Translations under genes and position numbers: made by a program
In this document: one piece after another, positions 3,221-64,000 of the stretch
How the letters are laid out: each line of letters begins with the position of its first letter
How positions within the stretch are numbered: position 1 is the first letter of the stretch
The notes under the pieces: generated by a model
Database searches by the model: none
What the model saw: the letters and a program-made list of their open reading frames with translations, nothing else
What the model was told of the DNA's origin: nothing
NCBI GenBank assembly: GCA_017447875.1
Contig: JAFSMP010000042.1
Location: 1 to 64,000, forward strand
DNA: 64,000 nt
Direction of reading: 5' to 3'
Origin: Paludibacteraceae bacterium
GTDB taxonomy: Bacteria > Bacteroidota > Bacteroidia > Bacteroidales > Paludibacteraceae

Positions 3221-4264
3221 ATGGTTAAGAAACGCTATATCATCCGTGCTATCCTGATCGTCTTAGGACTTATCCTGGCGCTTGCTGTGGCGTTTGTGGC
3301 GGAGCAGTACTACCGCTGGCATATCTGCAACTTCCGCGCCAAGGACGGTCAACCGCAGAGCATCTATGTCTATCCGGGTGCCTCGACGGACTCGGTGTTG
3401 AACCTACTGCGGGAACGGTATGATATCAGTTCAGAGACCGATTTGAAGTTACACATACGCTATTTCATTTTCCATTATCCGGAACCGGGTTATTATCTTT
3501 TCGATGCGCAGGTGGGTGACCGTGAAGTGATCGAACGGCTCAAATACGGACGTCAGACTCCTATTCGTCTGACCTGGAACAATTTCGTTCGTACCCGTGA
3601 GGACTTGGCGGGTAAGATCGCCGGCCGGCTTCAGATGGACAGTGTGACCCTGTTGCACTATCTCGAAGATGATGCTTTTCTGGCGACATACGGCTTGAAT
3701 AAGGAGACGAGCCGGTGCCTTTTTATCCCGAATACGTATGAGGTGTATTGGAATATCAGCCCGGAACAGTTGTTCGAACGCATGAACCGCGAATATAACT
3801 ACTTCTGGAACGAGGAACGCCGTGCCAAAGCCGATTCGATAGGTCTGAGTCCGGTGGAGATCGCTATCGTAGCGTCTATTGTCGAAGGCGAGAGCACCAA
3901 CAAGAGCGAACTGCCGATCATCGCCAGTCTGTATCTGAACCGCGTACGCAAAGGGATGCATCTGCAAGCCTGTCCGACGGTCAAATATGCGGTGGGAGAC
4001 TTTAAGTTACGCCGGATCCTGTACCGGCATCTGGCGGTTGACTCGCCTTATAACACCTATAAGTATCCGGGCTTGCCTCCGGGACCGATCCGCTGCCCGT
4101 CACCCGTGACGCTGGATATCGTGCTGAATGCGCCTAAGACGAACTATCTGTATATGTGCGCCAATCCTGAGCGGAACAACACGCATATCTTCTCCTCGGT
4201 CTTCTCGAACCATGTCAACGCGGCACGGCAATATCGGCACGTCATGGACACTATTCAATGGTAA
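3221..4264 (+). CDS. mltG: endolytic transglycosylase MltG (YceG family)
   Basis: Membrane-anchored lytic transglycosylase that cuts nascent glycan strands and so ends peptidoglycan polymerisation. It has 347 residues, with one N-terminal membrane helix (about residues 5-28) and the rest periplasmic. The catalytic Glu lies in VASIVEGES (usual form ASIVEKE), followed by the family signatures LQACPTVKYAVG and YPGLPPGPIRCPS. An AGGAGG ribosome-binding site lies at the end of mutS and the ATG is one base past the mutS stop. Its stop codon is formed by the heptamer repeat at 4258-4285. Confidence 0.93.
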   Translation: MVKKRYIIRAILIVLGLILALAVAFVAEQYYRWHICNFRAKDGQPQSIYVYPGASTDSVLNLLRERYDISSETDLKLHIRYFIFHYPEPGYYLFDAQVGDREVIERLKYGRQTPIRLTWNNFVRTREDLAGKIAGRLQMDSVTLLHYLEDDAFLATYGLNKETSRCLFIPNTYEVYWNISPEQLFERMNREYNYFWNEERRAKADSIGLSPVEIAIVASIVEGESTNKSELPIIASLYLNRVRKGMHLQACPTVKYAVGDFKLRRILYRHLAVDSPYNTYKYPGLPPGPIRCPSPVTLDIVLNAPKTNYLYMCANPERNNTHIFSSVFSNHVNAARQYRHVMDTIQW

Positions 4265-4285
4265 ATGGTAATTGGTAAATGGTAA
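4258..4285 (+). repeat. heptamer array (4 units, ATGGTAA type) at the mltG/usp junction
   Basis: Units ATGGTAA, ATGGTAA, TTGGTAA, ATGGTAA, then a partial fifth. Unit 1 carries the mltG stop (TAA 4262-4264) and unit 4 carries the ATG start of the next gene (4279). Confidence 0.85.
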
Positions 4286-4851
4286 ATGATTTGATTTGGG
4301 ATAATAACGAGGATATCAGAGTGATCGAATGCGAGAACAATGCTCGCACGATACGCAAGCGACTCAGCGAATGTCGGGAAGAACGGCGTCCGTATGTCTT
4401 TATCACGTCCACGATGACCATCAAACCGCTGCACCGGATCTTAGTGCCGGTGTCGATGCTGGAGGAAGAGACGTATAAGGCGGAGATATGTACCTATATC
4501 GCCCGCAAGACGGGTGCACATATTATCTTGCTGCAGGCCAATGACTACGGTTCGCACGCACGGCAGAACGTCAACCGGATCGTGACCCATATCAAGGCGG
4601 TGGCGGAACGGAGCGGTGAAGAAATCTCGTATGAAGTGGTGCTGGCGCGTAAGGACTCTTTCTCTCTCATGCGGGAAGCGGCAGAGCGGCAAAGGGATTT
4701 CCGGCACGACCTGTTGGTGCTTACTGCCAGCCGGGAATACGGCTTGGATGATATCTTCTTCGGACCGCAAGAACAGAAGGCGATCCAACGGGCACTGGTA
4801 CCGGTGATGCTGGTTAACCCTCGTGAAGATTTGTTCTCTCTTTGCGACTAA
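4279..4851 (+). CDS. universal stress protein-like (UspA fold)
   Basis: Predicted protein of 190 residues. From about residue 50 it has the Usp beginning IKPLHRILVPVSMLEEETYKAE, then a helix with ARKTGAHIILLQAND, and ends with a strand-helix-strand LVLTASREYGL and QRALVPVMLVNP. Usp proteins are cytoplasmic alpha/beta proteins that often bind ATP and are linked to stress survival. The classical G-x2-G-x9-G-S/T nucleotide loop is not clear here, so ATP binding is uncertain. An extra N-terminal stretch of about 45 residues precedes the fold. Its start codon is the last heptamer of the array joining it to mltG. Confidence 0.6.
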   Translation: MVNDLIWDNNEDIRVIECENNARTIRKRLSECREERRPYVFITSTMTIKPLHRILVPVSMLEEETYKAEICTYIARKTGAHIILLQANDYGSHARQNVNRIVTHIKAVAERSGEEISYEVVLARKDSFSLMREAAERQRDFRHDLLVLTASREYGLDDIFFGPQEQKAIQRALVPVMLVNPREDLFSLCD

Positions 4852-4914
4852 TTCTGCCTTTTTGTTAACTTAAATTTGCAAATTTTAGAAATTTGACACT
4901 TTTTCGTCAAAATA

Positions 4915-4946
4915 TTTGGCTATATGGTCAAAAAGCAGTACCTTTG
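4915..4946 (+). promoter_or_regulatory. Bacteroidota promoter for a small RNA
   Basis: Plus strand: -33 TTTG (4915-4918), 20 bp, -7 TACCTTTG (4939-4946). No gene of normal size follows. A terminator hairpin occurs about 50 bases downstream. Confidence 0.7.
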
Positions 4947-4950
4947 CACC

Positions 4951-5022
4951 GTGTTTTTCATGGTATTAGATTTAAGGTTAAATGAAAAGATTGGGTTGTC
5001 GTGAGACAACCTGCTTTTTTTT
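4951..5022 (+). ncRNA. putative small RNA with own promoter and terminator
   Basis: A transcript starting about 5 bases after the -7 box would be about 70 nt and end in a textbook intrinsic terminator: stem GGTTGTC (4994-5000), loop GTGA, GACAACC (5005-5011), then eight T (5015-5022). Its only ATG (4982) opens a 27-codon frame that runs through the terminator, so coding is unlikely. The stretch CATGGTATTAGATTTAAGG (4960-4978) looks like a conserved Bacteroidales small-RNA sequence from memory, possibly the Rfam Bacteroidales-1 class, but I could not verify this. Confidence 0.6.
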
Positions 5023-5029
5023 ATCTTTC

Positions 5030-6596: not shown

Positions 6597-7787
6597 TCAA
6601 TAATGAATGGTTATCTCTACACGTCTGTTAAGTTGTCGTCCTTCTTCGGTGTCGTTAGGAGCCACCGGACGGGTGTCTCCGTAACCGTAGGCCTTGATGG
6701 CTTCGGGTGCGCAACCGTACGCGATCAGTTGTCGGCGTACGGACTCGGCACGCGCTTGCGAGAGCGTCTTGTTGGACTCGGGTTGACCGATATTATCCGT
6801 ATGACCGGCTAACTGCACCTTATAACCGTAGGTCTGTACATGGGTGGCGATACGCTTGAGTTCCGGCAACGATGCCTCCATGATCACGTCACTGGCGGTC
6901 TCGAAGAGCAGGTTATCGATCGCCACGGGTTCGTTCACCGTTAATACGGTGATGGACTCCGGCCGTTTGTCCTGCGGCAGCGTCACCGCGTATATATCAT
7001 GCATCCGACCGATCTTCTGCGCATAATAGGCGGTGGTACCGTCCGTCGATATCTTATACCAGCAGTCACGACCGACGGTGTTGATCTCCGGTCCGAGATT
7101 CTCCGGTTCCGACCAGCAGTTCCAACAGGTATCTGCCAGACGACGGGTCACCCATACGTCCAGATCACCCAAGGTGCCTTCGCGGTCCGAAGAGAAATAA
7201 AGGGTCTTCAGGTCCGGATGCAGGAAGGGTGAACGCTCCATACCGGTGGTGTTGATAGCCGAACCGATGGAGTACGGTGTGCCCCAACGGCCTTGTGCGT
7301 CCCGTTCGGAGACGAAGATGTTTAACGAGGGTTTGTCTTCTCCTTCTGCCGGATAGTTGGCGGCAAAGAGCAGGGCCTTGCCATCTGCGGTGATCATCGC
7401 GTCCGCTTGCCAGTTACCCAACTGCAGGTACTGCGGTAAGGGTCGCGGTTCGGTCCATCCGTAGGCAGCACGCACCGAGAAACACATCCGTCCTTCCACG
7501 AACAGCAGCATCGTCCGGCCGTCACCGCTCACCGAGGTAGGTGCCTCATTGCGATGCGGGTTACTGAGTGCATCGATCTTACGGGCTGCACCCCACTCTC
7601 CGGTTTTTTTATCGCGGTACGAGACGTATATATCTTCCGTGTAAGACCCGTCTTCACGGTTCAGACCCACGAAATACAACGTGTTATCGTCGATGGTCAG
7701 CGTCGGACCGTACTCCTCTCCCCGCGGTGTATTCACCGTAGGAGGCAGCAGGATAGCCAATAATATGAAGAATAAGGTTATCAGCAT
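6597..7787 (-). CDS. PD40 beta-propeller/OmpA-like envelope protein
   Basis: Predicted protein of 396 residues with an N-terminal hydrophobic segment (MLITLFFILLAILLPP). It has repeated PD40/TolB-like blades (for example DLKTLYFSSDREGTLGDLDV), then a C-terminal OmpA domain with the peptidoglycan-binding pattern VQLAGHTDNIG, LSQARAESVRRQL and NRRVEITI. Such proteins anchor the outer membrane or surface machines to peptidoglycan; in Bacteroidota, related PorE-type proteins belong to the type IX secretion system. No lipobox Cys is visible. The partner is unknown. It is joined to cinA by a heptamer array that also supplies its start region. Confidence 0.8.
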   Translation of the reverse strand: MLITLFFILLAILLPPTVNTPRGEEYGPTLTIDDNTLYFVGLNREDGSYTEDIYVSYRDKKTGEWGAARKIDALSNPHRNEAPTSVSGDGRTMLLFVEGRMCFSVRAAYGWTEPRPLPQYLQLGNWQADAMITADGKALLFAANYPAEGEDKPSLNIFVSERDAQGRWGTPYSIGSAINTTGMERSPFLHPDLKTLYFSSDREGTLGDLDVWVTRRLADTCWNCWSEPENLGPEINTVGRDCWYKISTDGTTAYYAQKIGRMHDIYAVTLPQDKRPESITVLTVNEPVAIDNLLFETASDVIMEASLPELKRIATHVQTYGYKVQLAGHTDNIGQPESNKTLSQARAESVRRQLIAYGCAPEAIKAYGYGDTRPVAPNDTEEGRQLNRRVEITIHY

Positions 7788-7815
7788 TCAGTAATCAGTA
7801 TTCAGTTTTTCAGTA
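7787..7815. repeat. heptamer array (TTCAGTA type) between cinA and the PD40 gene
   Basis: Units TTCAGTA (7787), ATCAGTA (7794), TTCAGTT (7801) and, after one extra base, TTCAGTA (7809). The array covers the cinA stop and C-terminal codons and ends at the downstream start codon. Confidence 0.8.
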
Positions 7816-9040
7816 TTTTCAATAATCCGACCAGTGCTTTCATGCACGCGCGATCGGTTACCTGTTCACGCAGTTTGCCCAGATGGAAGCACTCGGCGGT
7901 GGTGCCTTCAGGTGTTGCCCAAGCTATCCAGACGGTGCCTACGGGCTTCTCCGCAGAGCCTCCGGACGGTCCGGCTATACCACTGGTGGCGATAGCATAA
8001 TCCGTTCCGATTTGTGCGCGAACGCTTTCTGCCATCACGCGCACCACTTCTTCGCTTACTACGCCGTGCGCTTTTATCAGTTCGGCAGGAACACCTAACA
8101 GGTGCTCTTTGACCGAGTTATCGTAACTGATGACCGAACCGTAATAGAAGGCGGATGACCCTGCATGTTTGTTCAGCAGCGAGGCTAACTTTCCTCCGGT
8201 ACAGGACTCAGCCGTAGCGATCGTCTGAGCTCGTGACTTGAGGAGTTGACCGACGATCACTTCCAGCGGTTCATCGGTCTCGGCGATCAGATAATCGCTC
8301 ACAAGCCCTTTGAGACGGTCGAACCAGGTCTCCATCTCTGATTCACTCAGCCCGCCGTAGGACGATAACCGCAGACGGATGATACCGTCCTTGGGCAGAT
8401 AAGCCAGATGCAGGGTATGCGGCATGGAGGCCTCATACTCCTCAAGCAGGATAGCTAAAGATGATTCAGGTATGCCCGTCACCTGCAGCGTCTTATGAAT
8501 AATGGCTTTCGACTTTCGACTTTCGACTTTTGACTCGATATACGGCAGTATCTGCTCTTCCATCCCGATCTTCATCTCGTACGGCACACCGGGCATGCAA
8601 GCCAGCAGTTGGTTGCCCTTATGGAAGATCATCAGCGGAGCGGAGCCTACCCGATTCTCCAGAATGTCCGCGCACTCCGGCACGAGCCACTGCGTAGCGG
8701 TCAGGCGGTTAAGCACATCCGGGCGGTCGGCATACAGCTTATGAATATGTGCGCGCACACGGGTGTCTTCAATAAGGTGCGAACCGAAGTACTCACACAG
8801 CACATGTTTGGTGATATCGTCCTTGGTCGGACCGAGCCCACCGGTAGTCAGGACGATATCCACCCGGCTGAACGCCTCGTTGAGAGCTGCGACGATATGG
8901 TCCCGGTCGTCATGCACCGAGGTGATCTGGTACAACTCGATACCGCACTCATTGAGTTTTTCCGCCATCCAGGCAGAGTTCGTATCGACTACCTGACCGA
9001 TCAGCAGTTCGTCTCCTATGGTGATTATTTCTGCGCGCAT
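7802..9040 (-). CDS. cinA: CinA, competence/damage-inducible and nicotinamide-nucleotide amidase
   Basis: Two-domain protein of 412 residues from the ATG at 9040 (MRAEIITIGDELLIG is the usual CinA beginning; an ATG at 9052 is possible). The N-terminal MoaB/MogA-like domain has TTGGLGPTKDD. The C-terminal PncC amidase domain has ATAESCTGGKLASLL and ATSGIAGPSGGS; this domain deamidates NMN in pyridine-nucleotide recycling. In frame, around residues 170-180, it carries a heptamer array encoding the linker SKVESRKSKA, which is not part of the normal family. It overlaps the upstream DUF3109 gene by 16 bases, suggesting coupling. Confidence 0.93.
   Translation of the reverse strand: MRAEIITIGDELLIGQVVDTNSAWMAEKLNECGIELYQITSVHDDRDHIVAALNEAFSRVDIVLTTGGLGPTKDDITKHVLCEYFGSHLIEDTRVRAHIHKLYADRPDVLNRLTATQWLVPECADILENRVGSAPLMIFHKGNQLLACMPGVPYEMKIGMEEQILPYIESKVESRKSKAIIHKTLQVTGIPESSLAILLEEYEASMPHTLHLAYLPKDGIIRLRLSSYGGLSESEMETWFDRLKGLVSDYLIAETDEPLEVIVGQLLKSRAQTIATAESCTGGKLASLLNKHAGSSAFYYGSVISYDNSVKEHLLGVPAELIKAHGVVSEEVVRVMAESVRAQIGTDYAIATSGIAGPSGGSAEKPVGTVWIAWATPEGTTAECFHLGKLREQVTDRACMKALVGLLKILKN
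8507..8534. repeat. heptamer array (TTTCGAC type) inside cinA
   Basis: Three perfect TTTCGAC units and one TTTTGAC, in frame in cinA, translating as VESRKSK-type residues in an apparent loop. Confidence 0.9.
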
Positions 9041-20273: not shown

Positions 20274-20291
20274 TGGTTATAATTGTTTAGT

Positions 20292-20319
20292 AATCAGTTA
20301 TCAGTAATCAGTAATCAGC
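20292..20319. repeat. heptamer array (AATCAGT type) in the gyrA leader
   Basis: Units AATCAGT, TATCAGT, AATCAGT, AATCAGC between the promoter and the gyrA start. Confidence 0.85.
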
Positions 20320-21312: not shown

Positions 21313-22344
21313 GTGAACAGACTGCTCATCGTCGGAATAACCGTACTCTGCTTTGTAGGTTGCGCCAAACAGCCTACGGAGCAGGGTACGATTCCTTTAG
21401 GTAACCGCTACGCGACGGGTTTTCAGATCACGGAGACTGACAGCGGCACGGTCGTGGAGGTTTTTCAGCCGTACCAGCGTGTATGCGTGCGGCAACCGAT
21501 GCGTCGTATCGGTACGATGAGCACGGTGCAGGTGGGTTTTCTCGATGCGATAGAGGCGCTGGACTGTCTGGTAGCCGTATGCAATCCGGAGTTGATCTAC
21601 ACGCCGGTCAAAGGCGACGAGATCGACTTAGGGGACAGCATGAAACCTTCTGCGGAACGGACTCTGCAAGCCGGACTGGATGCGCTGCTGGCGGTGAACT
21701 ACGGTCAGTACGACAACCTGGAGGCGACGCGGTTGGAGAAACTGGGTGTCTTCACGATCTATATCAATGAATGGCAGGAAGGCAGTCCGCTGGCCCGTGC
21801 CGAATGGATCCGCGTGCTCGGTGCACTAACCGGCAAGTTACCGCAGGCCGACAGCGTGTTCCGGGCGGTAGAGCGCCAATATAATAGTTTTCAGCAATCA
21901 GTGATCAGTAGTCGGTCCGCGAAGCGGTCTATCATGTCCGGCAATAATTTTAGAGGCACGTGGTATGTCCCGAGCGGAAAGAACTACCTGGCGTACCTGT
22001 TTAAGGACGCAGGTGCGGACTATCCGTTCTACGACGATGCACGCGAGACCTCTATCCCGCTGACGATCGAAGAGACGCTCCGTTATTTCCACGAGGCGGA
22101 TGTATGGGTCGGAGCCGGCGGTAACAGTCTGGCGGAACTGGCGGAGATAGACGAGAAACACACGTGGTTCAAGGCCTATCAGGACGGCCGCGTCTATAAC
22201 TGGCGCAAGCAGACCAAGCCGAGCGGAGCGAATAACTTCTGGGAACGCGGCGTGGTGCACCCCGAAGAAATGCTCGAGGACATTATTCATATACTGAATA
22301 ATGCCCCCGACAGTGTACTACATTTCGCGACTCACTTGCAGTAA
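21313..22344 (+). CDS. BtuF-like ABC-type substrate-binding lipoprotein
   Basis: Predicted protein of 343 residues with a GTG start (21313), 8 bases after the DUF4465 stop. Lipobox at TVLCFVGC. The fold of helical-backbone periplasmic binding proteins for Fe-siderophore or cobalamin is indicated by RIGTMSTVQVGFLDAIEAL, DLGDSMKPSAERTLQAGLDA and DVWVGAGGNSLAEL. It delivers its ligand to an inner-membrane ABC transporter, but no permease or ATPase genes are nearby. Cobalamin is inferred from the DUF4465 partner. A degenerate heptamer array lies in frame (QQSVISSRSAKRS). The operon ends at the 22457 terminator. Confidence 0.75.
   Translation: MNRLLIVGITVLCFVGCAKQPTEQGTIPLGNRYATGFQITETDSGTVVEVFQPYQRVCVRQPMRRIGTMSTVQVGFLDAIEALDCLVAVCNPELIYTPVKGDEIDLGDSMKPSAERTLQAGLDALLAVNYGQYDNLEATRLEKLGVFTIYINEWQEGSPLARAEWIRVLGALTGKLPQADSVFRAVERQYNSFQQSVISSRSAKRSIMSGNNFRGTWYVPSGKNYLAYLFKDAGADYPFYDDARETSIPLTIEETLRYFHEADVWVGAGGNSLAELAEIDEKHTWFKAYQDGRVYNWRKQTKPSGANNFWERGVVHPEEMLEDIIHILNNAPDSVLHFATHLQ
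21890..21917 (+). repeat. degenerate heptamer array (TCAGT type) inside the BtuF-like gene
   Basis: Units TTCAGCA, ATCAGTG, ATCAGTA, GTCGGTC, in frame in an apparent loop. Confidence 0.65.
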
Positions 22345-27048: not shown

Positions 27049-28932
27049 TTAATTATTGATGTGTAAATCAATAGCTCCTGTTATCTCGGTACTGATCTCC
27101 CCGGTAGGATCGTTGATCTCATCGACGGCGGTATAGACCCGCACAAAATCGACGGAAGGCAGCGTGACGGGCAGGCCGTTGGCATCCACCGCCCATGCTA
27201 TATCGAACGACGTACCGTCTTTATCCTTATTGGGTTTATTATCCACGTACCCGTATTCGAGGATGCGCTGCACGACCTGTCCGCTGATTTTCTCGGTTTG
27301 CGACGGCAGTTTGGCACCGTACAGCGTATATTCGTCCGCCGTGATCCATTGCGGGTAATACGGTTGGTTATGGTAGGGGTTTTGCAGCGTATCACCGGCA
27401 CGGGTATAGGTACGGGAATAATGATGATCGGTGAGCGGGTCGTCATAGAGACAGCCTTTGAGTTCGTACCAGGTGTCATCGGGCAGTCCGTTGCCGTTCT
27501 CATCGCGGCAGACAAGCACGATACCGGGTTCTGAACTGCCGTAGGTCTCATTACCGCTCATCTTGTACGCGTTGCCCAGGATCTGGATATCGCGTCCTTC
27601 GAGGTTCTCCACCGGATGGTCAAAACCGAAGGTGATATACCCACCCCAGCCTCCTAAGCAAACCATACCTCCGGCGTTGTTGGCGATCGCCTGTTCACAT
27701 TTGCGGCACATTGCTTGGGCATCATCGCCGGTCTCGTATTTGGGTAACATATTAACGAACTGCCCCATACCCGGCAGGTACTCATAGACACGGCTGATGT
27801 ATGCGGACTGAGGCGTGACGGTGTCAGTCGTATCCGTATGCATCGCTTCACCTACGCGGCATAAGTGACCCGGGATGTCTCCCGTCAGCGCCTGCCAACG
27901 TTCACGTCCGTCGTACGCATAACAATGCAATACACCGGATGAGACATAGTTCTTGGCATCGGTGACGTAGAATGCATCGGCGGTGGCCAAGAGGCCGTAA
28001 GGGGTCTCAAAGGAGGAAAGGTGATAGGTGACAGGTGATAGGTTATAGTTGATCGTCGAATACACCTTCAGTTCCTTATTCTCGTTATCGAGAATATAGG
28101 CATGGGTTCCTTGGATCGATATGTTCGCACAAGGAGTCTGAATACGCGGACCTCCGACGACTACTACCTGCGGCTTGATATCCTTGTAGTTTCCTTGGCT
28201 GCAGACCCAGAGGTGCCCCTGTTCATCTGCCCGCACACGGGTTGGGTTGATGCCTACGGTGATCTTCTGTATCTCCGTAAAGGAGGTAAGGTCGATGACC
28301 GAGAGAGTCGAGTCATAACGGTTGGTGAGGTACCCTCCGGAATTGGTCACATAGAGTTTGTCATCCAGGATACAGAGTTCATCGGGTTGATGGCCGACTT
28401 TGACTTCCCGGGTGATGGTCAGGGTGGCGGTATCGACCTCGAAGACCGAACCCAGGAGTTCCGGATCGGCTATCGAGCCCACATAAGCGCTGACGTACAT
28501 CTTATTTCCATGAAAAGCAAGGTAACGACAGTTGGGGATATCCACCTGCCCGATATGCCGCGCCTGCAGGTCCATGACCTCCACCTTATGGGAACAGTTG
28601 ATGACGGCATAGAGACGGGAACCGTAGGTTTGGATGTCGTTGCCCACATCGCCTAACTCCTTGACTTGCTTCGGATTCTGTGCCCCGTACCAGTTGGAGT
28701 AATAGGTGCCGGTCTCCAGATTCATATAGTCCAAGCGGGCTTTATTGGCACCCATGTTTCCTTCGCAGAGCACGTATAACCCACCCTGCTGCACCTCGTC
28801 GGTGACGTCGGTCGGGATCGTCGGATAGACGACCTCGTCCTTGCGGCAGGACCATAGGAGTACACATACCAAAATGGTAAATGGTAAATGGTAACTGGTA
28901 AATGGTTTTAGTATTTGAAAGCGAGTGTGCAT
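27049..28932 (-). CDS. BtuG-like beta-propeller surface lipoprotein with C-terminal extension
   Basis: Predicted protein of 627 residues. Lipoprotein signal ends at LLWSCRKDE. Residues about 45-345 are a YncE-like seven-bladed propeller (YVLCEGNMGANKARLDYMN, QPDELCILDDKLYVTNSGGY, INPTRVRADEQGHLWVCSQG), as in BtuG, the surface protein that captures cobalamin and hands it to BtuB. A second domain of about 250 residues follows (SAYISRVYEYLPGMGQF, GGWGGYITFGFDHPVEN), function unknown. The region before the lipobox is encoded by a heptamer array, and a second array lies between propeller blades. The start overlaps the end of the receptor gene by 25 bases. Confidence 0.75.
   Translation of the reverse strand: MHTRFQILKPFTSYHLPFTILVCVLLWSCRKDEVVYPTIPTDVTDEVQQGGLYVLCEGNMGANKARLDYMNLETGTYYSNWYGAQNPKQVKELGDVGNDIQTYGSRLYAVINCSHKVEVMDLQARHIGQVDIPNCRYLAFHGNKMYVSAYVGSIADPELLGSVFEVDTATLTITREVKVGHQPDELCILDDKLYVTNSGGYLTNRYDSTLSVIDLTSFTEIQKITVGINPTRVRADEQGHLWVCSQGNYKDIKPQVVVVGGPRIQTPCANISIQGTHAYILDNENKELKVYSTINYNLSPVTYHLSSFETPYGLLATADAFYVTDAKNYVSSGVLHCYAYDGRERWQALTGDIPGHLCRVGEAMHTDTTDTVTPQSAYISRVYEYLPGMGQFVNMLPKYETGDDAQAMCRKCEQAIANNAGGMVCLGGWGGYITFGFDHPVENLEGRDIQILGNAYKMSGNETYGSSEPGIVLVCRDENGNGLPDDTWYELKGCLYDDPLTDHHYSRTYTRAGDTLQNPYHNQPYYPQWITADEYTLYGAKLPSQTEKISGQVVQRILEYGYVDNKPNKDKDGTSFDIAWAVDANGLPVTLPSVDFVRVYTAVDEINDPTGEISTEITGAIDLHINN
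28019..28053. repeat. heptamer array (AGGTGAT type) inside the BtuG-like gene
   Basis: Units AGGTGAT, AGGTGAC, AGGTGAT, AGGTTAT, AGTTGAT, in frame between propeller blades (peptide NYNLSPVTYHLSS). Confidence 0.85.
28874..28908. repeat. heptamer array (ATGGTAA type) at the BtuB-like/BtuG-like junction
   Basis: Units ATGGTAA three times, CTGGTAA, ATGGTTT. It encodes part of the signal peptide of the BtuG-like protein (FTSYHLPFTI) and touches the receptor stop codon. The unit is the same as in the mltG/usp array. Confidence 0.85.
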
Positions 28933-32530: not shown

Positions 32531-32557
32531 ACCTTTAACCTATAACCTTTAACCTTT
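32530..32557. repeat. heptamer array (AACCTTT type) at the wzc/DUF1846 junction
   Basis: Units TACCTTT, AACCTAT, AACCTTT, AACCTTT. It covers the wzc stop (32549-32551) and reaches the DUF1846 start codon. Confidence 0.85.
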
Positions 32558-36830: not shown

Positions 36831-36855
36831 AAATCTTAAATCTTAAATTTTAAAT
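36831..36855. repeat. heptamer array (AAATCTT type) before the first wza
   Basis: Units AAATCTT, AAATCTT, AAATTTT and a partial fourth, abutting the wza start and 12 bases from the oxidoreductase stop. Confidence 0.8.
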
Positions 36856-37850: not shown

Positions 37851-38671
37851 TATTGTTGTTTTACTATGATTCGCTTTACTATATTCTTGGCGCCTTGCAG
37901 CAACCGTTCTTTCCACCAGGCAGCGGTGTCGTTCGTCCAGCGCTGCGGATGGGTGGTGATCATCACGTGGTTCGGTAACTTCCCCTGCTCTACCGCCTCG
38001 ATCAAAGCGTGCGTCGTGTGCCAAGTCAGCCCTGCAGCGGTCCATTGCTCCTGATAACCGGGTATCTTATCCCGTACGCTCACCTTGTATCCGTCCCAGC
38101 AGCGACCCGTGTCCGTCAGGTAGAACACACCGCTGGAGCAATCGTTCCGTAAGGATAAGAAGTCCGTGTCAAAATACGGTTCGCCGATGATGCCCAAGGC
38201 CTTGTAGTCGTATTTCTTCCACAGCTCCTTGCCGTCCCATTTGCTGGTCGGAGCACCGTGCATGCAGATCGTCTCCACCGCGTAGTACTGCCGGAAATAC
38301 GCGAGCCAGGTTGTAAAATGGTCATACGCCTTGTCAATATCGCCGTCGCACAGACTCATATCCTCGTAGTGGTACCCTATCTCGTGCCCCAGCGCCGTTA
38401 TCGCCCGGATGATTTCCGGTTGGTTACTCTCCGGGATGATGCGGAAGTAATACGTCGCTTTCGCCCCTATCGCATGCTCTATCTGCGCGGTCTTCAGACT
38501 GTTCGGTGCCTTCAGGTCCACATCGTGCCTTAAAACAACGAATTTCTCGTTATCTCGAGATCTCGAGGTTTCGAGATCTCGGCAATACTCTGCAAACGAT
38601 ATCAGCCGATATCCCTTCGCCTGCAGCGTCTCTAACAAGGTCCGATATATGTCCAGCGTAAAGTCCCGCAT
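37850..38671 (-). CDS. polysaccharide deacetylase-like protein
   Basis: Predicted protein of 273 residues from MRDFTLDIYRTLLETLQ (ATG 38671). NodB-like motifs: VVLRHDVDLKAPN with the catalytic Asp and metal Asp, GHEIGYHYEDMS with the metal His pair, and a late ITTHPQRW. It probably N-deacetylates a sugar in surface polysaccharide synthesis; the substrate is unknown. It is first in the capsule operon, after the 38720 promoter. An octamer array lies in frame near residues 30-42 (RDLETSRSRDNEK). Confidence 0.78.
   Translation of the reverse strand: MRDFTLDIYRTLLETLQAKGYRLISFAEYCRDLETSRSRDNEKFVVLRHDVDLKAPNSLKTAQIEHAIGAKATYYFRIIPESNQPEIIRAITALGHEIGYHYEDMSLCDGDIDKAYDHFTTWLAYFRQYYAVETICMHGAPTSKWDGKELWKKYDYKALGIIGEPYFDTDFLSLRNDCSSGVFYLTDTGRCWDGYKVSVRDKIPGYQEQWTAAGLTWHTTHALIEAVEQGKLPNHVMITTHPQRWTNDTAAWWKERLLQGAKNIVKRIIVKQQ
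38544..38583. repeat. octamer array (ATCTCGAG type) inside the deacetylase gene
   Basis: Units TTCTCGTT, ATCTCGAG, ATCTCGAG, GTTTCGAG, ATCTCGGC; period 8. The unit is self-complementary, so the array could also fold. Confidence 0.75.
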
Positions 38672-38719
38672 TATCGTTATGCCCGCATTTTTCCAATTTA
38701 ATAAATCTAAAAAAGCGTG

Positions 38720-43474: not shown

Positions 43475-43483
43475 ATTATTAAT

Positions 43484-43520
43484 GGGTTAGTGGGTTAGTG
43501 GGTTAGAGGTTATTGGGTCA
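43484..43520. repeat. octamer array (GGGTTAGT type) between ddh and the four-helix-bundle gene
   Basis: Units GGGTTAGT, GGGTTAGT, GGGTTAGA, then GGTTATT and GGGTCAA. It encodes the last residues of the four-helix-bundle protein (PITSNPLTH) and its stop. The same unit recurs inside glmS (45115). Confidence 0.9.
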
Positions 43521-43891: not shown

Positions 43892-43904
43892 AATTATATA
43901 TATT

Positions 43905-43944
43905 TTAATCCTCTCATCCACTCATCCTCTCATCCACTCATCCA
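43905..43944. repeat. octamer array (CTCATCCA type) upstream of the four-helix-bundle gene
   Basis: Units TTAATCCT, CTCATCCA, CTCATCCT, CTCATCCA, CTCATCCA, ending at the glmS stop codon. The same unit recurs inside glmS (45162). Confidence 0.9.
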
Positions 43945-53254: not shown

Positions 53255-53717
53255 TGTAGCCGGTTTCGGAGAGATCCCGGCAGAAGGTTTGCATATCGAG
53301 TTGACCCAAGCGGAGGAAGATCCGCTGACGGGTGAGATGCGAATGGACGTGAATGGCACGCTGCTGTGTTCCAGTGCGTTGAGTGTGTCCATCACCCGTT
53401 CTGAAGCAGGATTAGAGGACGAGTTCTGTTGTGCCGACCAATGTACGCCGGGTAACGGTGAACAGACGGAACTCCTGACGTTTATGCCGGGAGGTATGGC
53501 CAATTGGTTTGCGCATTACACCCCCGCGCTGAACAGCGACGTGAACATCGTCTATGTCTTCTCGGACGGCTCCGAGACACGCACGCTGACGGTGCGTTAT
53601 CTGTACTCCACAGAAGGGATCGATGCGGTACAGAGTAAGCAAACAAAAGTGCAGAAGATCCTGAAGGACGGCATTTTATACATCGAAAAAGACAATAAAA
53701 CCTATACAGTATTATGA
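53220..53717 (+). CDS. small secreted protein with Bacteroidales C-terminal tail
   Basis: Predicted protein of 165 residues, signal peptide MKLLLILGLIINVAGFG. The middle has cysteines in a FCCADQCTPG motif. The end, KVQKILKDGILYIEKDNKTY, is the short tail found on many secreted Bacteroidales proteins and probably directs surface export. It overlaps both neighbours (35 bases upstream, the stop TGA inside the next start region), so it belongs to the Omp28 operon. No family is recognised for the body. Confidence 0.72.
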   Translation: MKLLLILGLIINVAGFGEIPAEGLHIELTQAEEDPLTGEMRMDVNGTLLCSSALSVSITRSEAGLEDEFCCADQCTPGNGEQTELLTFMPGGMANWFAHYTPALNSDVNIVYVFSDGSETRTLTVRYLYSTEGIDAVQSKQTKVQKILKDGILYIEKDNKTYTVL

Positions 53718-55150
53718 TTTCAAATTTCAAATTTCAAATTTTCACTGCTTTAGCTGCATTATGCTTGGTGGCATGTGAAAAAGACATAAAGGTGGAGCCG
53801 AAAGACACTCCGACGGATACGGTAACGCCGATCACACTCCCCCTCTCCTTCCCCAAGAAACATCTGATCGAGGAGTTCACGGGTCAGGACTGCGGTTATT
53901 GTCCTTATGGAATGAACTGTGTTCATGACTTTATGGAGAAGGACACCAACTGGGTGTTGATCCTGCACCATTACGGCTATCAAGCCGACCATTTCTCGGT
54001 TGCCGGTAGCAAGAAGATTACCAGTGCGTTGGGAGTCAACGGTGCTCCGGCTATGGCTATCAACCGCGCGAAGACCAAGACTTCCGGAACGAATACGATC
54101 GTGTTCCATCCGGGGTATCTGCCGGGAACGAGCAAGAGTCAGTTTGATACCGAGACCTATGCGTCGGTGAACATCGCCAACAGTTATGATGCGGGATCAC
54201 GGGAATTGAAGGTGACCGTATCGGGTCTGGTGGACACCACCGATCATACCAACTTGTTCCTGACCGTGGTGCTCAAAGAATCCGGTATGATTGACTATCA
54301 GTCGGACTATTACTACTCGTACGAAGGCTGGCAGGAGTTCCGTCACTGCAACGCGGTGCGCGCTTTCATGACCGCACCCAAGGGTGACATGCTCCATATT
54401 GCGAATTGCACCTACAGCCATGAGTTTACGCTTGCTTGGGATGACAAATGGGATCCGAATAACTGCTCGGTGGTGGCCTTTATCACGGAGAGTTTCAAAC
54501 CGGTGGTTCAAGCAGAACAACGTCCGGTGGTGGAAGGTACGGCAGGTGGTAATGACATCGAACACGGTGGTGTCACACCGGTGCCGGTAGAAGACTATTA
54601 CCCCGAACCCAATGCGACAGACGGTCCTGCGGCCTACACAGGCAATCAGGCGGATACCTGCGACGTGGCACAAGCGTGGTACGAACTGAGTTCGGACTAT
54701 ACGTTCTGGCAGATTCAGTCCTACGGTACACAAACGGTCAAAGTGAACAATACGAACTGTGTGCCTTTTGCGTTCATTTATCTGTTCACGGAGCCGGGCA
54801 CGAAGACCATTGAGGAAGGTACATATGAGATCAATACGAGCGGTGAACCGGGTACCGTGATGGCCGGATTCCGCGATGACAGTCAGTTCCTGATTGGCGG
54901 AAGTCAGTTCTACCTGACCAGCTATTCGTACCTGCAGCAAGGTTATCTGGTGCCGGAAGCACAATGGATGATCGCCGAAGGAACGATGACTATCCAAAGC
55001 AAGAGCTGGGAGCTCAGCGGTAAAGCCCTTAACGGTTCCACGATTCGGCTTGTCGGTACTACCGGTATCAGCGTGGAAGGTAAAGCAAGTGCACCGCGAC
55101 GCGCTCCGAAACGCAAGACGGACAAAGGGAGTTTCGAACTGTGCCAATAG
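53714..55150 (+). CDS. large Omp28-like lipoprotein with CxxC
   Basis: Predicted protein of 478 residues, lipoprotein signal ending ALCLVACEKD. Omp28 domain: HLIEEFTGQDCGYCPYGMNCVHDFM with a CGYC active-site-like motif, followed by LILHHYGYQADHFSVAG and GAPAMAINR. The C-terminal half is a beta-rich carbohydrate- or protein-binding-like domain. The start of the signal peptide (ISNFKFQIF) is encoded by a heptamer array. Last gene of the envelope operon before dnaE, which starts 9 bases later. Confidence 0.82.
   Translation: MISNFKFQIFTALAALCLVACEKDIKVEPKDTPTDTVTPITLPLSFPKKHLIEEFTGQDCGYCPYGMNCVHDFMEKDTNWVLILHHYGYQADHFSVAGSKKITSALGVNGAPAMAINRAKTKTSGTNTIVFHPGYLPGTSKSQFDTETYASVNIANSYDAGSRELKVTVSGLVDTTDHTNLFLTVVLKESGMIDYQSDYYYSYEGWQEFRHCNAVRAFMTAPKGDMLHIANCTYSHEFTLAWDDKWDPNNCSVVAFITESFKPVVQAEQRPVVEGTAGGNDIEHGGVTPVPVEDYYPEPNATDGPAAYTGNQADTCDVAQAWYELSSDYTFWQIQSYGTQTVKVNNTNCVPFAFIYLFTEPGTKTIEEGTYEINTSGEPGTVMAGFRDDSQFLIGGSQFYLTSYSYLQQGYLVPEAQWMIAEGTMTIQSKSWELSGKALNGSTIRLVGTTGISVEGKASAPRRAPKRKTDKGSFELCQ
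53717..53744 (+). repeat. heptamer array (ATTTCAA type) in the signal-peptide codons of the large Omp28-like gene
   Basis: Units ATTTCAA three times, then ATTTTCA, beginning at the second codon. Confidence 0.88.
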
Positions 55151-59040: not shown

Positions 59041-59567
59041 AGATAGGGCTTTACGGGGGAAGTTTCAACCCGGTGCACTTCGGGCATGTGGGTTTGGCGA
59101 AGTGGGTCATTGAGCACACGGACCTGGATGAGTTATGGTTGATAGTGAGTCCGAATAACCCGCTCAAACCAGCCGGAATACTGGCACCGGAAGAAGAACG
59201 GTTACGTGGCGTACAGGAAGCCATCCAAGACATCCCGCATGTGAAAGCCTCGAACTTTGAGTTCGGTTTACCGCGTCCGAGTTATACCGCCAATACCTTA
59301 CGCGAACTGCAAAAAGCCTATCCCGAACACGAGTTCACGCTCGTCATCGGTGAGGATAACCTCGCTATCTTCGATCAATGGCGGGAATACAAGTATATCG
59401 CATCGAACTTTCGCATTTTCGTGTATCCACGAAAAGGAAGTTCGATAATTGAAGATTGTAGATTGAAGATTGAAGATTTTCATTCTCTTCTTTTTCTCAA
59501 AGAAGCTCCGCTTTTTGATATCTCTTCGACAGAACTTCGCCAACGAGGTAATTGCTGCCACCGATAA
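59037..59567 (+). CDS. nadD: nicotinate-nucleotide adenylyltransferase
   Basis: Predicted protein of 176 residues. It makes deamido-NAD from nicotinate mononucleotide and ATP. Nucleotidyltransferase motifs GLYGGSFNPVHFGHVGLA with the HxGH pair, LPRPSYTANTLRELQ, FTLVIGEDNLAIFDQW and the late ISSTELRQR (SSTxIR motif). The protein ends a few residues after this motif (GNCCHR), so the usual C-terminal helix of about 15-25 residues is missing; the end overlaps folC by 71 bases on the other strand. A heptamer array in frame (IIEDCRLKIEDFH) precedes the last motif. Probably active but atypical. Confidence 0.9.
   Translation: MKIGLYGGSFNPVHFGHVGLAKWVIEHTDLDELWLIVSPNNPLKPAGILAPEEERLRGVQEAIQDIPHVKASNFEFGLPRPSYTANTLRELQKAYPEHEFTLVIGEDNLAIFDQWREYKYIASNFRIFVYPRKGSSIIEDCRLKIEDFHSLLFLKEAPLFDISSTELRQRGNCCHR
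59441..59482 (+). repeat. heptamer array (ATTGAAG type) inside nadD
   Basis: Units ATTGAAG, ATTGTAG, ATTGAAG, ATTGAAG, ATTTTCA, preceded by TTCGATA; in frame. Confidence 0.88.
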
Positions 59568-60762
59568 AGATGGCATCATCCGATGCCGCCTGTTCAATCG
59601 CATAGTTGAGCGCCTCTTGCGGATCTTCGATCGCCATCCCTTCTCTGCCCCATAGGGTTAACATCTCTTGTGCGGATCGCGCCCGTTGCGTATTGGGACG
59701 CGTGAAGATATAATGATACCGCTCGCCTTGCGGCATGAGACGCATGACGATATCCGTGTCTTTGTCGTTCACCATCCCGAAGACCAACCATACATGGTTG
59801 GCGGTCAGTTCCTTCAGTTGTCGCGCCACATACTGCAGACCGTGACTGTTATGTCCCGTATCGCAGATGGTGAGCGGTCGCTCACAAAGGGTCTCCCATC
59901 GTCCTCGTAAGCCGGTCAAGGTGCAGACATGCGCAAAGCCTTCGGCTATTTGGATATTGGATATTGGACATTGGATATTGGTCAATTCTCTCAGCGCCAC
60001 AAACGCCGTCTGTAGGTTATGCTCCTGATAGTTGCCGTGCAGCTCGCAGTCCGGTGCTACTTGCAGTCTCGTACGACGCAGGTACTCACATTGGTCGGCA
60101 AAAAAGATCTCCGAACCGCATTCTTGTGCTTTAGCTAAGAACACATTCATCGTCTGCGGGTGGGTCTCACCGATGACCACCGGGACCTGCGGTTTGATGA
60201 TACCGGCTTTCTCACGGGCAATCTGCGTAAGGGTATTTCCAAGAAACTCCGTATGGTCCAAACCAATATTGGTGATCACACTTAAGATCGGAGTGAGTAC
60301 ATTTGTACTATCTAACCGCCCGCCCAATCCTACTTCGATAACGGCTATATCCACGTTCTGCTGCACAAAATACCAAAAACCGAGTGCGGTCATGGTTTCA
60401 AAGAAAGACGGTTGCACTGCGTCCAGGAACGCCTTGTGCTCGGTGACAAAATCCGCGATGACCTGTTCCGGTATCGGTTGACCGTTGATACGGATCCGTT
60501 CGGTAAGCGAGACGAGATGCGGGCTGGTGAACAGTCCTACTTTGCGACCCGAGGCATGTAAGGCCGCCGCTATCAGATGAGCGGTTGATCCTTTTCCATT
60601 GGTGCCGGCTACATGGATGGCTTTCAGATGGAGATGCGGATCACCGACATGCGCCATCAAACGGAGCGTATTCTCCAAGCCCGGTTTATAGGCACTCGCA
60701 CCCACCTGGTGAAAAGGCGGGCGAGAGGCATAGAGATACTGTATCGCTTCGGAATAGGTCAC
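59497..60762 (-). CDS. folC: bifunctional folylpolyglutamate/dihydrofolate synthase
   Basis: Predicted protein of 421 residues, standard length. Adds glutamates to (dihydro)folates. Mur-ligase-like ATP site HVAGTNGKGSTAHLIAAAL, then LFTSPHLVSLTERIRINGQP, VIEVGLGGRLDSTNVLTP, and C-terminal ICDTGHNSHGLQYVARQL and IFIGGSNYLVGEVL. A heptamer array in frame adds a segment (TNIQCPISNIQIAEG). The gmk gene overlaps its start by 4 bases; its 3' end runs 71 bases into nadD. Confidence 0.95.
   Translation of the reverse strand: MTYSEAIQYLYASRPPFHQVGASAYKPGLENTLRLMAHVGDPHLHLKAIHVAGTNGKGSTAHLIAAALHASGRKVGLFTSPHLVSLTERIRINGQPIPEQVIADFVTEHKAFLDAVQPSFFETMTALGFWYFVQQNVDIAVIEVGLGGRLDSTNVLTPILSVITNIGLDHTEFLGNTLTQIAREKAGIIKPQVPVVIGETHPQTMNVFLAKAQECGSEIFFADQCEYLRRTRLQVAPDCELHGNYQEHNLQTAFVALRELTNIQCPISNIQIAEGFAHVCTLTGLRGRWETLCERPLTICDTGHNSHGLQYVARQLKELTANHVWLVFGMVNDKDTDIVMRLMPQGERYHYIFTRPNTQRARSAQEMLTLWGREGMAIEDPQEALNYAIEQAASDDAIFIGGSNYLVGEVLSKRYQKAELL
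59950..59984. repeat. heptamer array (TTGGATA type, 5 units) inside folC
   Basis: Units TTGGATA, TTGGATA, TTGGACA, TTGGATA, TTGGTCA, in frame. Confidence 0.9.
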
Positions 60763-62200: not shown

Positions 62201-63507
62201 TTGCCTATACAGAATTTACTAAAAATGTTCGATAATACTTCTTGGTTGGTTATCTGGCCGGTGACTTCTCCGAGTGCCGACAAGCAGTCCTGCAAATCCA
62301 GCGACAGCAGTTCACCGGATAAGCCGGAGTCTAAACCCTCTTGCACCCGCTCGATCGCTTCGTGTGCCCGGCAAATCGCCTCATAATGCCGCACATTACT
62401 GAGCATGACCGCCGAAGTTTGCATCGACTCCCGTGCGATACGCACCAGTTCTTTCTTCAGAGGCTCTATTTCGCCATTCTTGGCGGAAATGGCGATTTGT
62501 GATTGGTAATTGGTGATTGGTGATTGGTCTATCTTATTCAACACGTGGATGACCGTTCCGGAATGGTCAATATCCAATGTCCATTGTCCGTTGTCGCTCA
62601 GATAGATGATGATCTGCGCTTTCTGCGCGGCTTGGCGACTGCGCTCGATGCCTAAGTTCTCTATGGCGTCGTTGGTCTCGCGCAGTCCGGCGGTGTCGAT
62701 AAGACGGAAGAGGATACCGTCCAGGATGATTGTGTCTTCGATGGTGTCCCGGGTGGTACCTTGGATGTCACTGACGATTGCCCTTTGTTCGCCCAGCAGG
62801 GCATTGAGAAGCGTGGATTTACCTACGTTCGGTGCACCTACAATCGCAACAGGGATACCGTTGCGGATCGCGTTACCGGTTCGGAAGGACGACTGCAGTG
62901 CTGCCAGTTTGGAGGCGATCTCCTCTGCCAGGGAGCTTAACTCCGTGCGATCCGCGAACTCCAGTTCTTCGTGATCCGCAAAGTCCAACTCTAATTCGAT
63001 AAGAGAGGTGAAATGCAGCAAGCGCTCCCGCAGAATCTTCAGTTCGTTAGATACAGAACCGCGTAACTGACTGAGTGCCAAGTCCTTCTCTGCCTTCGAT
63101 TGGGCTGCTATCAGATCTGCCACCGCTTCAGCTTGCGTTAGGTCCATCTTTCCGTTAAGGAACGCCCTACGGGTGAATTCCCCGGGTTCTGCGGCTCTGC
63201 AACCCGCATCGATTAACCATCTAAGAATCTCCTGCTGAATGAACACGCTACCGTGACAGGCTATCTCGACCGTGTCTTCGCCGGTGAACGAGTGCGGTGC
63301 CCGAAAGACAGAACACATCACTTCATCCAGCACCTCTCCGTTGCGCTGTATCTTTCCGTGCCGCACCGTATTGGCAGGCGTGTCCGAAAGGGCTGTGCGA
63401 CCGGCAAAGAGCGTATCTACGATAGAGATAGCGTCCTTACCGGACACACGGATGATGGCAATTCCACCTGTTCCGTAAGCAGTTGATATAGCACAAATCG
63501 TGTTCAT
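62197..63507 (-). CDS. mnmE: tRNA modification GTPase MnmE
   Basis: Predicted protein of 436 residues. With MnmG it makes the 5-carboxymethylaminomethyl group on wobble U34. N-terminal folate-binding domain (AISTAYGTGGIAIIRVSG, HGSVFIQQEILRWLI). G domain with GAPNVGKSTLLNALL (P-loop), IQGTTRDTIED, DTAGLRETNDAIE and the NKID specificity motif. C-terminal CIGK with the catalytic Cys. Directly after NKID is an extra segment (QSPITNYQSQ) encoded by a heptamer array. First in the mnmE-yicC-gmk-folC operon. Confidence 0.96.
   Translation of the reverse strand: MNTICAISTAYGTGGIAIIRVSGKDAISIVDTLFAGRTALSDTPANTVRHGKIQRNGEVLDEVMCSVFRAPHSFTGEDTVEIACHGSVFIQQEILRWLIDAGCRAAEPGEFTRRAFLNGKMDLTQAEAVADLIAAQSKAEKDLALSQLRGSVSNELKILRERLLHFTSLIELELDFADHEELEFADRTELSSLAEEIASKLAALQSSFRTGNAIRNGIPVAIVGAPNVGKSTLLNALLGEQRAIVSDIQGTTRDTIEDTIILDGILFRLIDTAGLRETNDAIENLGIERSRQAAQKAQIIIYLSDNGQWTLDIDHSGTVIHVLNKIDQSPITNYQSQIAISAKNGEIEPLKKELVRIARESMQTSAVMLSNVRHYEAICRAHEAIERVQEGLDSGLSGELLSLDLQDCLSALGEVTGQITNQEVLSNIFSKFCIGK
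62494..62528. repeat. heptamer array (GATTGGT type, 5 units) inside mnmE
   Basis: Units GATTTGT, GATTGGT, AATTGGT, GATTGGT, GATTGGT, in frame immediately after the NKID codons. Confidence 0.9.
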
Positions 63508-63522
63508 CCTACAAATTGGCTA

Positions 63523-63554
63523 CAAAATTACAACAAAAATCGCATATACGCAAG
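63523..63554 (-). promoter_or_regulatory. promoter of the mnmE operon
   Basis: Minus strand: CTTGCG (TTG 63551-63553), extension TATATGCG, 20 bp, -7 TAATTTTG (63523-63530), 16 bases before the ATG. Confidence 0.78.
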
Positions 63555-63588
63555 TGTTTGGTTAAATAATTTGTCAGCAGGGCTATTT

Positions 63589-64000
63589 TTACAGATACTG
63601 CAGCAGTTGATCGAGGGTGGTGATAATGGTTATATGTGATTGGTTATTGGTGATTGGCTCATTGCGACGATTAAAATAGATCGCATCGATGCCGGCCGCT
63701 TGTGCACCAAGGATGTCGGTGGTCATCGAGTCACCGACCATGATTACTTCGGAGGGTTGAAGACCGCAACGCCGCAGTGCTTCTTGGTAGAACCGCACAT
63801 CGGGCTTGTCGTAACCTATATCCATGGATATATACGTGTCCTCGAAGAGGTGTAATATACCTGCGTGTTGCAGACGGGAACGCTGCAGATGCCCGAAACT
63901 GTTGGAGGCGGCAAAGAGTCGGTAACCCTTGTTTTTCAAGGCTTCAAGCGTCTCTTTGGCTTCCGGCACCAGCGTATGAGTGGTACCCCACGCGGCACGA
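63589..64000 (-). CDS. HAD-superfamily hydrolase, YjjG-like (N-terminus outside window)
   Basis: The frame is open from the stop at 63589 to the window edge (about 136 codons); the GTG at 63969 is internal, since the coding sense continues upstream (RAAWGTTHTLVPEAKE). Visible motifs: motif II region FAASNSFGHLQRSRL, motif III Lys-like region SMDIGYDKPDVRFYQEAL, and motif IV EVIMVGDSMTTDILGAQAAGID. The motif I Asp must lie upstream. Such enzymes are small-molecule phosphatases, often for nucleotides. A heptamer array in frame lies near the C-terminus (NNQSHITIIT). Confidence 0.85.
   Translation of the reverse strand, partial: RAAWGTTHTLVPEAKETLEALKNKGYRLFAASNSFGHLQRSRLQHAGILHLFEDTYISMDIGYDKPDVRFYQEALRRCGLQPSEVIMVGDSMTTDILGAQAAGIDAIYFNRRNEPITNNQSHITIITTLDQLLQYL
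63625..63659. repeat. heptamer array (ATTGGTx type, 5 units) inside the HAD gene
   Basis: Units AATGGTT, ATATGTG, ATTGGTT, ATTGGTG, ATTGGCT, in frame. Confidence 0.8.

Follow-up and report, generated by a model that had tools for sequence, protein, structure and literature searches.

Short tandem arrays of the window

The stretch analyzed here (64,000 nucleotides, hereafter the window) is the beginning of contig JAFSMP010000042.1 from a Paludibacteraceae bacterium (assembly GCA_017447875.1, 2.25 Mb, 77% complete), and it contains, both within genes and at the junctions between them, short tandem arrays whose 7- or 8-bp units differ from one locus to the next. An autocorrelation scan (match +1, mismatch -2, array cut-off of at least 14) detected 12 period-7 and 3 period-8 arrays, whereas ten dinucleotide-preserving shuffles of the window gave a mean of 0.0 arrays at every period from 4 to 30. 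At a looser cut-off of at least 10 for periods 7 and 8, 20 arrays were found in the window, as against a mean of 0.2 and a top score of 12 in 30 shuffles. These results confirmed that the arrays, more than 20 of which had been proposed in a sequence-only reading of this DNA, are real and are not reproduced by shuffling. Among the 24 coordinates given in that reading, 16 proved solid, namely 12 of period 7 (4258, 8507, 20292, 28019, 28874, 29677, 32530, 36831, 53717, 59441, 59950, and 62494) and 4 of period 8 (43484, 43905, and 45162 by the autocorrelation scan and 45115 by Tandem Repeats Finder). Three others were borderline, with scores of 10-11 (7787, 38544, and 40971), and five were weak, with scores of 5-9 (21890, 41690, 55324, 61967, and 63625); of the weak ones, 61967 and 63625 were backed by Tandem Repeats Finder rows, and 41690 and 55324 were left without support. 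The gene calls used throughout were produced within the analysis, with uncertain starts and a few genes missed, and all of the genomes are metagenome assemblies.

Many of the arrays lie at or near gene boundaries. The array at 4257..4288 (plus strand, AATGGTA), at the junction of the MltG gene and a Usp-like gene, contains both the end of the MltG open reading frame (ORF; 4264) and the start of the next one (4279). A borderline period-7/14 array with an ATCAGTA-like unit (7780..7806, minus strand, score 10) sits between an OmpA-family gene (6597-7787) and cinA (7802-9052), and an unstranded AGTAATC array (20289..20318) lies upstream of gyrA (17685-20273, minus strand). On the minus strand, period-7 arrays separate the stop codon of a TonB-dependent receptor gene from the start of the next gene (28872..28906, AAATGGT), occupy the junction between a DUF1846 gene (31052-32530) and a tyrosine autokinase gene (32549-35203; array at 32531..32558, ACCTTTA), and mark the gap between a polysaccharide-export gene (35976-36830) and an oxidoreductase gene (36867-38045; array at 36824..36855, AAATCTT), and a borderline period-8 array (ATCTCGAG, 38545..38581) is found near the 5' end of the gene at 37850-38722. 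Two unstranded period-8 arrays lie next to glmS (43945-45846, minus strand), one between a DapDH-like gene and glmS (43479..43518, TTAGTGGG) and the other just past the glmS 3' end (43908..43944, ATCCTCTC). On the plus strand, an ATTTCAA array (53717..53741) begins immediately 3' of the ATG of an Omp28-like gene (53714-55150), and an ATTGAAG array (59448..59478) is located near the 3' end of an ORF with a cytidylyltransferase-like match (59037-59567), just preceding the 3' end of a convergent Mur-ligase-family gene.

Internal arrays were found in cinA, mnmE, glmS (period 8), the Mur-ligase-family gene, the TonB-dependent receptor gene, and a gene with a weak DUF5074 match, all on the minus strand. 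The cinA array (8506..8535, CTTTCGA) is in frame; the segment to which its peptide, ESKVESRKSKA, belongs varies among relatives. The gene with the weak DUF5074 match (27049-28932) holds an AGGTGAT array at 28019..28053, and the receptor gene (28908-30932) carries an in-frame array in a loop at 29677..29706 (TTGGTGA, AATCACC on the sense strand). Inside glmS there are two period-8 arrays (45115-45146, GGTTAGTG, and 45161-45192, CTCATCCT) at about residues 219-244, between the glutamine-amidotransferase and SIS matches. The Mur-ligase-family gene (59497-60762) contains a TTGGATA array at 59950..59981, and the in-frame array of mnmE (62490..62528, TGGTGAT) is placed between the NKxD and SAK motifs of the GTPase domain. 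In addition, a weak array (21880..21930, plus strand, score 6) is present in a periplasmic-binding-protein gene. As a separate observation, the four period-8 arrays of the glmS region are clustered (43479-43944 and 45115-45192), two of them within the gene.

Different units at the same sites in related species

The comparison set assembled around the receptor gene comprised 58 loci from 56 isolates, two of which gave two loci each, the second loci being devoid of arrays; loci of related species are not independent. These loci contained 158 period-7 or period-8 arrays, of which 97 could be mapped to the window and 61 were unmappable. The 97 mapped arrays fell on 15 sites, and all but one of them (96) were on sites used by at least two loci, compared with a mean of 19.9 and a maximum of 34 under random placement, a null that ignores that only some sites are permissive. 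The unit was not conserved at these sites: 15 units were found in 20 related loci at the stop/start junction at 28880, 8 units in 11 loci at 36824..36855, 6 units in 6 loci at 28019..28053, and 5 units in 5 loci at 38545..38581. Since the unit differs at the same site, the arrays of relatives are not ordinary conserved coding sequence. Near 21902, clear arrays with 5 units were present in 10 related loci, and therefore the weak array at this place in the window is probably a decayed one.

The receptor loop at 29677 exists in relatives as a short loop, an array, or another insert. Its array types include AATCACC, AATCGAA, AATCACA, AATCTCC, AATCAGC, and AACAGCC, and the loops with arrays are mostly 60 or 63 bp long. 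On a receptor gene tree of 59 tips computed with the loop excluded, which may be affected by recombination, 22 tips had a short loop, 25 had an array belonging to one of 15 unit classes, and 12 had another insert. At least 29 state changes were required on this tree, at least 18 of them between array, short, and other. The states of the loop are nonetheless partly inherited, because shuffled tip labels needed more changes (mean 26, never fewer than 19) than those 18.

Core enzymes behaved similarly. In 29 congeners, the MnmE segment between NKxD and SAK held a period-7 array in 6 cases and a period-8 array in 1, all of them with different units, and an array was present in CinA in 10 of 29; the MnmE loci were taken from 30 of 46 matching genomes and the CinA loci from 30 of 43.

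Inserts of other kinds were noticed at some of these places. The MnmE loops of L240, L241, L247, and L254 contain hairpin-like, G+C-richer inserts (TCCCTTCAGGGAGAAACC-like) where relatives hold heptamer arrays, and similar hairpin-like inserts (CCCCTTCCCGACCTTCCCCTGTAGGGGCAGG-like) occur at heptamer-array sites of relatives in L114 (~4056), L094 (~620), and L104 (~17740). At site 21902, six loci (L059, L060, L062, L065, L067, and L068) show a third type of repeat, with GAAGCGGTC-like units of ~14-20 bp (ACAGCGnAGCGGTCT), which fills the loop of the periplasmic-binding-protein gene with a length in frame where congeners carry heptamer arrays. A second variable loop in the MnmE of L243 (alignment column ~56-64) has an extra RLRVTGDGLRDT-like segment, whose protein sequence suggests a further heptamer array.

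Distribution, periods, and composition

The carriers belong to a genus of uncultured Paludibacteraceae that live in the gut, mostly that of ruminants; related contigs are labelled uncultured Bacteroidales or Paludibacteraceae, and many of them name ruminant hosts or organs in their titles, with at least one from pig. In nine genomes of this genus (1.50 Mb sampled), we counted 195 arrays of period 7, 37 of period 8, 12 of period 9, 7 of period 10, 31 of period 11, and 9 of period 12, together with 7 of period 6 and none of periods 4-5. By contrast, a single period-7 array was present in 358 kb taken, as one stretch per family, from 20 other families of the order; most of these stretches were lower in G+C. 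Array density within the genus ranged from 3.3-3.5 per 100 kb (G004 and G002) to 29-30 per 100 kb (G034 and G015). The genome of the window (G000), sampled at about 722-726 kb of its 2.25 Mb, had 10.5 arrays per 100 kb, with 76 period-7 arrays in 722 kb against 0 in one shuffle.

The units were highly diverse, with 27 unit classes among 39 arrays, and A+T made up 71% of the array letters. A single transposed repeat was rejected as the source because of this diversity. The TAACTGA class (canonical AATCAGT) was seen once in this set.

The arrays of G000 were somewhat unevenly distributed among the 18 contigs sampled (p 0.013). Contigs C20 and C16, of 40 kb each, had 0 and 1 period-7 arrays, about 4 being expected in each, and contig C66 had 25 in 140 kb; the scarcity in C20 and C16 is possibly due to foreign contigs in the bin or to a regional effect. 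Outside the genus, a reversed control pattern, itself a CTAACCA heptamer repeat, matched 34 and 21 times in two genomes from other families of the order (G110 and G164), figures that represent overlapping matches and not a count of arrays; other lineages may thus each favor one heptamer of their own.

Array length and copy number

The length of the period-7 arrays in the nine genomes peaked at 32 bp (~4.5 copies) and dropped steeply beyond 35 bp, and the same peak and drop recurred in a set of 80 named loci. The median was 32 bp both inside and outside genes, with quartiles of 29-35 bp. The sequence-only reading, according to which the length was always about 25-45 bp, was thus nearly right, but 11 of the 195 arrays reached at least 50 bp. 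Because the medians were longer for period 8 (34 and 36.5 bp) and period 11 (42 and 45.5 bp), although the detection threshold affects the longer periods, copy number (~4-4.5) is steadier than length across periods. Array lengths modulo 7 were not uniform, with an excess at 4 (43 of 195, p 0.009), a weak clue that fits seeds with a microhomology of ~4 nt.

Position relative to genes and reading frame

Only 76 of the 195 period-7 arrays were inside called genes, although called genes account for 78-89% of the sequence, and the other 119 were outside genes or at gene ends. Gene 3' ends accounted for 47 arrays (43 straddling the end and 4 within 30 bp of it) and 5' ends for 19 (13 straddling and 6 within 30 bp). 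The 53 intergenic arrays comprised 34 between co-directional, 9 between divergent, and 4 between convergent genes, with 6 unclassified. No motif or orientation common to the arrays turned up, no orientation rule having been tested.

The consensus units of the in-gene arrays were stop-free on the sense strand in 53 of 76 cases and on the other strand in 38 of 76, with ~48% expected from composition. No internal stop was present in the assemblies of the 29 MnmE segments or in the receptor matches listed. In CinA, a stop was observed in 2 of 29 matches, in both at query residue 3 and before the next methionine, which is the likely start.

Change between near relatives

In locus pairs that are 94.5-96.1% identical, arrays were variously identical, different at equal length, or present in one member and absent from the other. 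Length differences of 8, 14, and 21 bp were found in pairs 95.7-96.1% identical, and at some sites the array of one member gave way in the other to an unrelated array or a hairpin-like insert. Unit changes within an array were often common to all of its copies, e.g. in the first array of L097 as compared with L113, as slippage turnover would give. In the same pair (94.8% identical), the receptor loop differs along with its flanking codons. In 12 pairs (190,554 aligned bases) there were 108 insertions or deletions (indels) of at least 5 bp. Those near period-7 sequence were multiples of 7 in 6 of 17 cases, compared with 12 of 91 elsewhere (Fisher p 0.036).

A 35-bp array distinguishes L112 from L115. 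The empty site of L115 was considered as evidence of an array birth in L112 and rejected; loci L085, L087, and L103, from three other species, share an array at that place, and for this reason the difference is probably a loss. Degenerate period-8 stretches of the CCTAGTnn/CTAGGATn type, located near one gene, also differ between near relatives (L101/L107 at ~15741, L104/L128 at ~15654, and L094 at 13898).

Unit sharing, copying, and candidate enzymes

Unlinked arrays share units within a genome beyond chance, and genomes therefore have preferred units. Of 327 unlinked pairs of arrays with the same unit, 137 were within one genome, a value reached in 0 of 5000 shuffles, where 75 +/- 10 such pairs were expected, or 84 +/- 9 with G+C held. 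Long identical stretches gave the impression that ordered arrays are copied between sites, but this was lost under permutation of the unit order: in 60 permutations, identity over at least 24 bp occurred within genomes in 17.4 cases on average and in 26 at most, as against 21 cases observed. The sole striking case left is an irregular 40-bp array stretch that is identical at two sites 10 kb apart in G015. A k-mer survey for dispersed repeats returned mostly promoter-like and gene-family repeats.

Loss of mismatch repair as the cause of the arrays was not supported, since MutS exceeded its family cut-off in 38 of the 41 genomes, and the window itself carries an intact copy (625-3219). A reverse transcriptase (of the diversity-generating retroelement (DGR), DRT, or retron type) was also rejected as the array maker, as the RVT_1 domain was lacking in 29 and present in 8 of the 37 genomes surveyed in the genus, and its presence tracked array density poorly: it was absent from G000 (77% complete) and from the array-rich G034 (97%) and present in the array-rich G015 and the array-poor G002. 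No candidate for an array-making enzyme was found, other polymerase families not having been surveyed.

Relation to known repeats

The short tandemly repeated repetitive sequences of cyanobacteria such as Calothrix are heptamer arrays with several units per genome, and the palindromic elements of Rickettsia are small repeats inserted in frame in coding genes at tolerated surface positions. The Rickettsia elements are palindromic and form fixed families, in contrast to the tandem arrays of changing units described here. The Calothrix repeats, named in PMC4692102, belong to a different phylum, and turnover at orthologous loops is not described in the passages on them.

Heptanucleotides are the commonest long simple repeats in most genomes (Mrazek et al. 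2007, as cited in PMC4679880). The arrays reported here agree with that class (as it is summarized in PMC4679880 and PMC4692102) in that 7 nt is the commonest period, with an excess over chance and above neighboring periods, and in that copy number varies between near relatives. According to those summaries, units that are not multiples of three avoid gene interiors, and slippage tied to the polymerase footprint was proposed as their origin. This genus departs from what is summarized there in that extrapolation from densities of 3-30 arrays per 100 kb puts the number of different units in a genome in the hundreds, in that a given site is filled with different units in different species, and in that loops of core enzymes contain arrays that are in frame.

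The sequence-only reading had stated that no equivalent was described in Bacteroidales, and this did not hold: TAACTGA heptamer repeats were reported in Beggiatoaceae, Cyanobacteria, and five Bacteroidetes, including two sets in Paludibacter propionicigenes (MacGregor 2015, PMC4679880), a species placed under the same family name as this genus. As presented in that report, those repeats are likewise short heptamer arrays near starts and stops with no tie to gene function. They have, however, one shared unit, related heptamers being rarely repeated, whereas many units per genome (27 classes in 39 arrays) and many arrays in genes were found here, and they are mostly intergenic and just upstream of start codons, in forward orientation, a position in which the arrays of this genus are not concentrated (76 of 195 in genes, 47 at 3' ends, and 19 at 5' ends). 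The GGGAATC repeats of Xanthomonas and GGGGA(C/T)T repeats of Nostoc, as described in PMC4692102, are also heptamers at the same gene gaps of related species, near gene ends, and vary in length and sequence, but they are built on one G-rich, quadruplex-forming unit rather than on AT-rich, diverse units. No paper describing these arrays in Paludibacteraceae was found in the openly licensed literature. The heptamer class itself is known (PMC4679880 and PMC4692102); as far as these searches show, what is new is how varied the units are, that they turn over at fixed sites, and that loops of core enzymes are used.

Origin of the arrays

The presence of different units at the same spot in related species points to an unusually busy mutational process. 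The proposal of the sequence-only reading that an active process, slippage-like, templated, or enzyme-made, rather than one transposed repeat underlies the arrays was borne out in its main part by the diverse units, the turnover at fixed sites, and the clustering of lengths around 32 bp; for its enzyme-made variant there is no candidate, RVT_1 being missing from 29 of 37 genomes. Arrays that have a step of 7 and ~4.5 copies, reuse sites with different units, differ between relatives by whole units or whole arrays, and lie in frame within genes would be accounted for if slippage, or re-priming at microhomologies, with a step of 7/8 nt were very active in this lineage in particular and its products passed through selection for tolerance and frame; to this reading we give a probability of about 0.55. 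According to this reading, an error of DNA synthesis with a 7-nt step, either slippage of the strands or re-priming where microhomologies are spaced by 7-8 nt, would act genome-wide and make the arrays in place, so that arrays of 7-bp and less often 8-bp units would be born, homogenized, shortened, and replaced at a high rate. Selection would keep them only at permissive places, such as operon junctions, gene ends, and variable protein loops, and inside genes would retain only net lengths that preserve the frame. The loops and spacers of the genus would in this way be repeatedly rewritten, by arrays without a sequence-specific function.

Several observations weigh against slippage or re-priming as the whole explanation. 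Plain threshold slippage should yield more 3-copy than 4-copy arrays, rather than a peak at 32 bp; simple slippage does not account for the exchange of an array, in a single step, for an unrelated one or for a hairpin-like insert; and the within-genome unit sharing exceeded that of all 5000 shuffles. Moreover, only 18 of all 108 indels were multiples of 7, which is no strong excess, and no de novo birth with an outgroup-supported empty site was caught among the near pairs. Finally, recombination with other species may bring in some of the arrays, because in some cases, as in the L097/L113 receptor loop, the flanks change too.

Because simple slippage leaves the narrow range of copy number and the replacements in one step unexplained, we also considered a dedicated activity (a polymerase, a terminal-transferase-like enzyme, or a repair complex) that fills breaks at tolerant positions with ready-made arrays of ~4-5 units or with arrays copied from other sites. 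The narrow length peak in and outside genes, the replacement of arrays at the same spot in near relatives, and the sharing of units within genomes, including the duplicated 40-bp stretch of G015, are consistent with it. We regard it as unlikely, given that the identity of unlinked same-unit arrays is unexceptional after unit-order permutation (21 cases, against 17.4 on average and 26 at most) and that RVT_1 is missing from most genomes, G000 and the array-rich G034 included, with no candidate enzyme among those surveyed. Somewhat less likely again is that, in this genus, a dedicated activity routinely generates variation in protein loops and operon spacers by writing fresh arrays into permissive DNA where it is broken or gapped, each with ~4-5 copies of a unit of 7 or 8 nt that often bears no relation to the preceding one. 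A regulatory role at gene junctions, for which the arrays would be kept because they couple translation or bind an RNA-binding protein, a function put forward for the TAACTGA repeats, would agree with the 119 arrays outside genes or at gene ends in genomes that are 78-89% genic, and with arrays such as that at 4257..4288 that hold the stop of one gene and the start of the next. The 15 units in 20 loci at the 28880 junction, the 76 arrays inside genes, core enzymes among them, and the failure to find a common motif make this improbable.

The turnover itself might be ascribed to homologous recombination of alleles between congeners with little new formation, by which the arrays would mainly have spread. 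The receptor loop of L097/L113, which differs together with its flanking codons, and the sharing of units at one site by unrelated species point in that direction, but recombination cannot create the ~15 units seen at single sites and leaves the near-absence of arrays from the 20 other families sampled unexplained, and we hold it to be very improbable as the main route. Most doubtful of all appears a role as phase-variation switches, in which a change of one 7-bp unit would shift the frame and turn the gene off. Seven is not a multiple of 3, near relatives differ in unit number, and some arrays are inside a surface receptor gene (29677), but the frames are open in the assemblies (the listed receptor matches, the 29 MnmE segments, and CinA, stops being confined to residue 3 in 2 of 29), and housekeeping genes (mnmE, cinA, and glmS) are affected.

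Ever since heptanucleotides emerged as the most frequent class of long simple repeats, it has been a standing question why bacteria prefer 7-nt repeats. Many natural replicates are available in this genus, with the same permissive sites in dozens of species, different arrays, and similar copy number, which make array birth, turnover, and step size measurable. In addition, segments of conserved enzymes (MnmE, CinA, and GlmS) can be replaced in frame by slippage-type repeats with no obvious loss of the gene, and such replacement is a simple route to new linker sequence.

Apart from the arrays, positions 4951-5023 of the window, downstream of the Usp-like gene, match the Bacteroidetes FopS small RNA family (Rfam RF04319, 76 bits).

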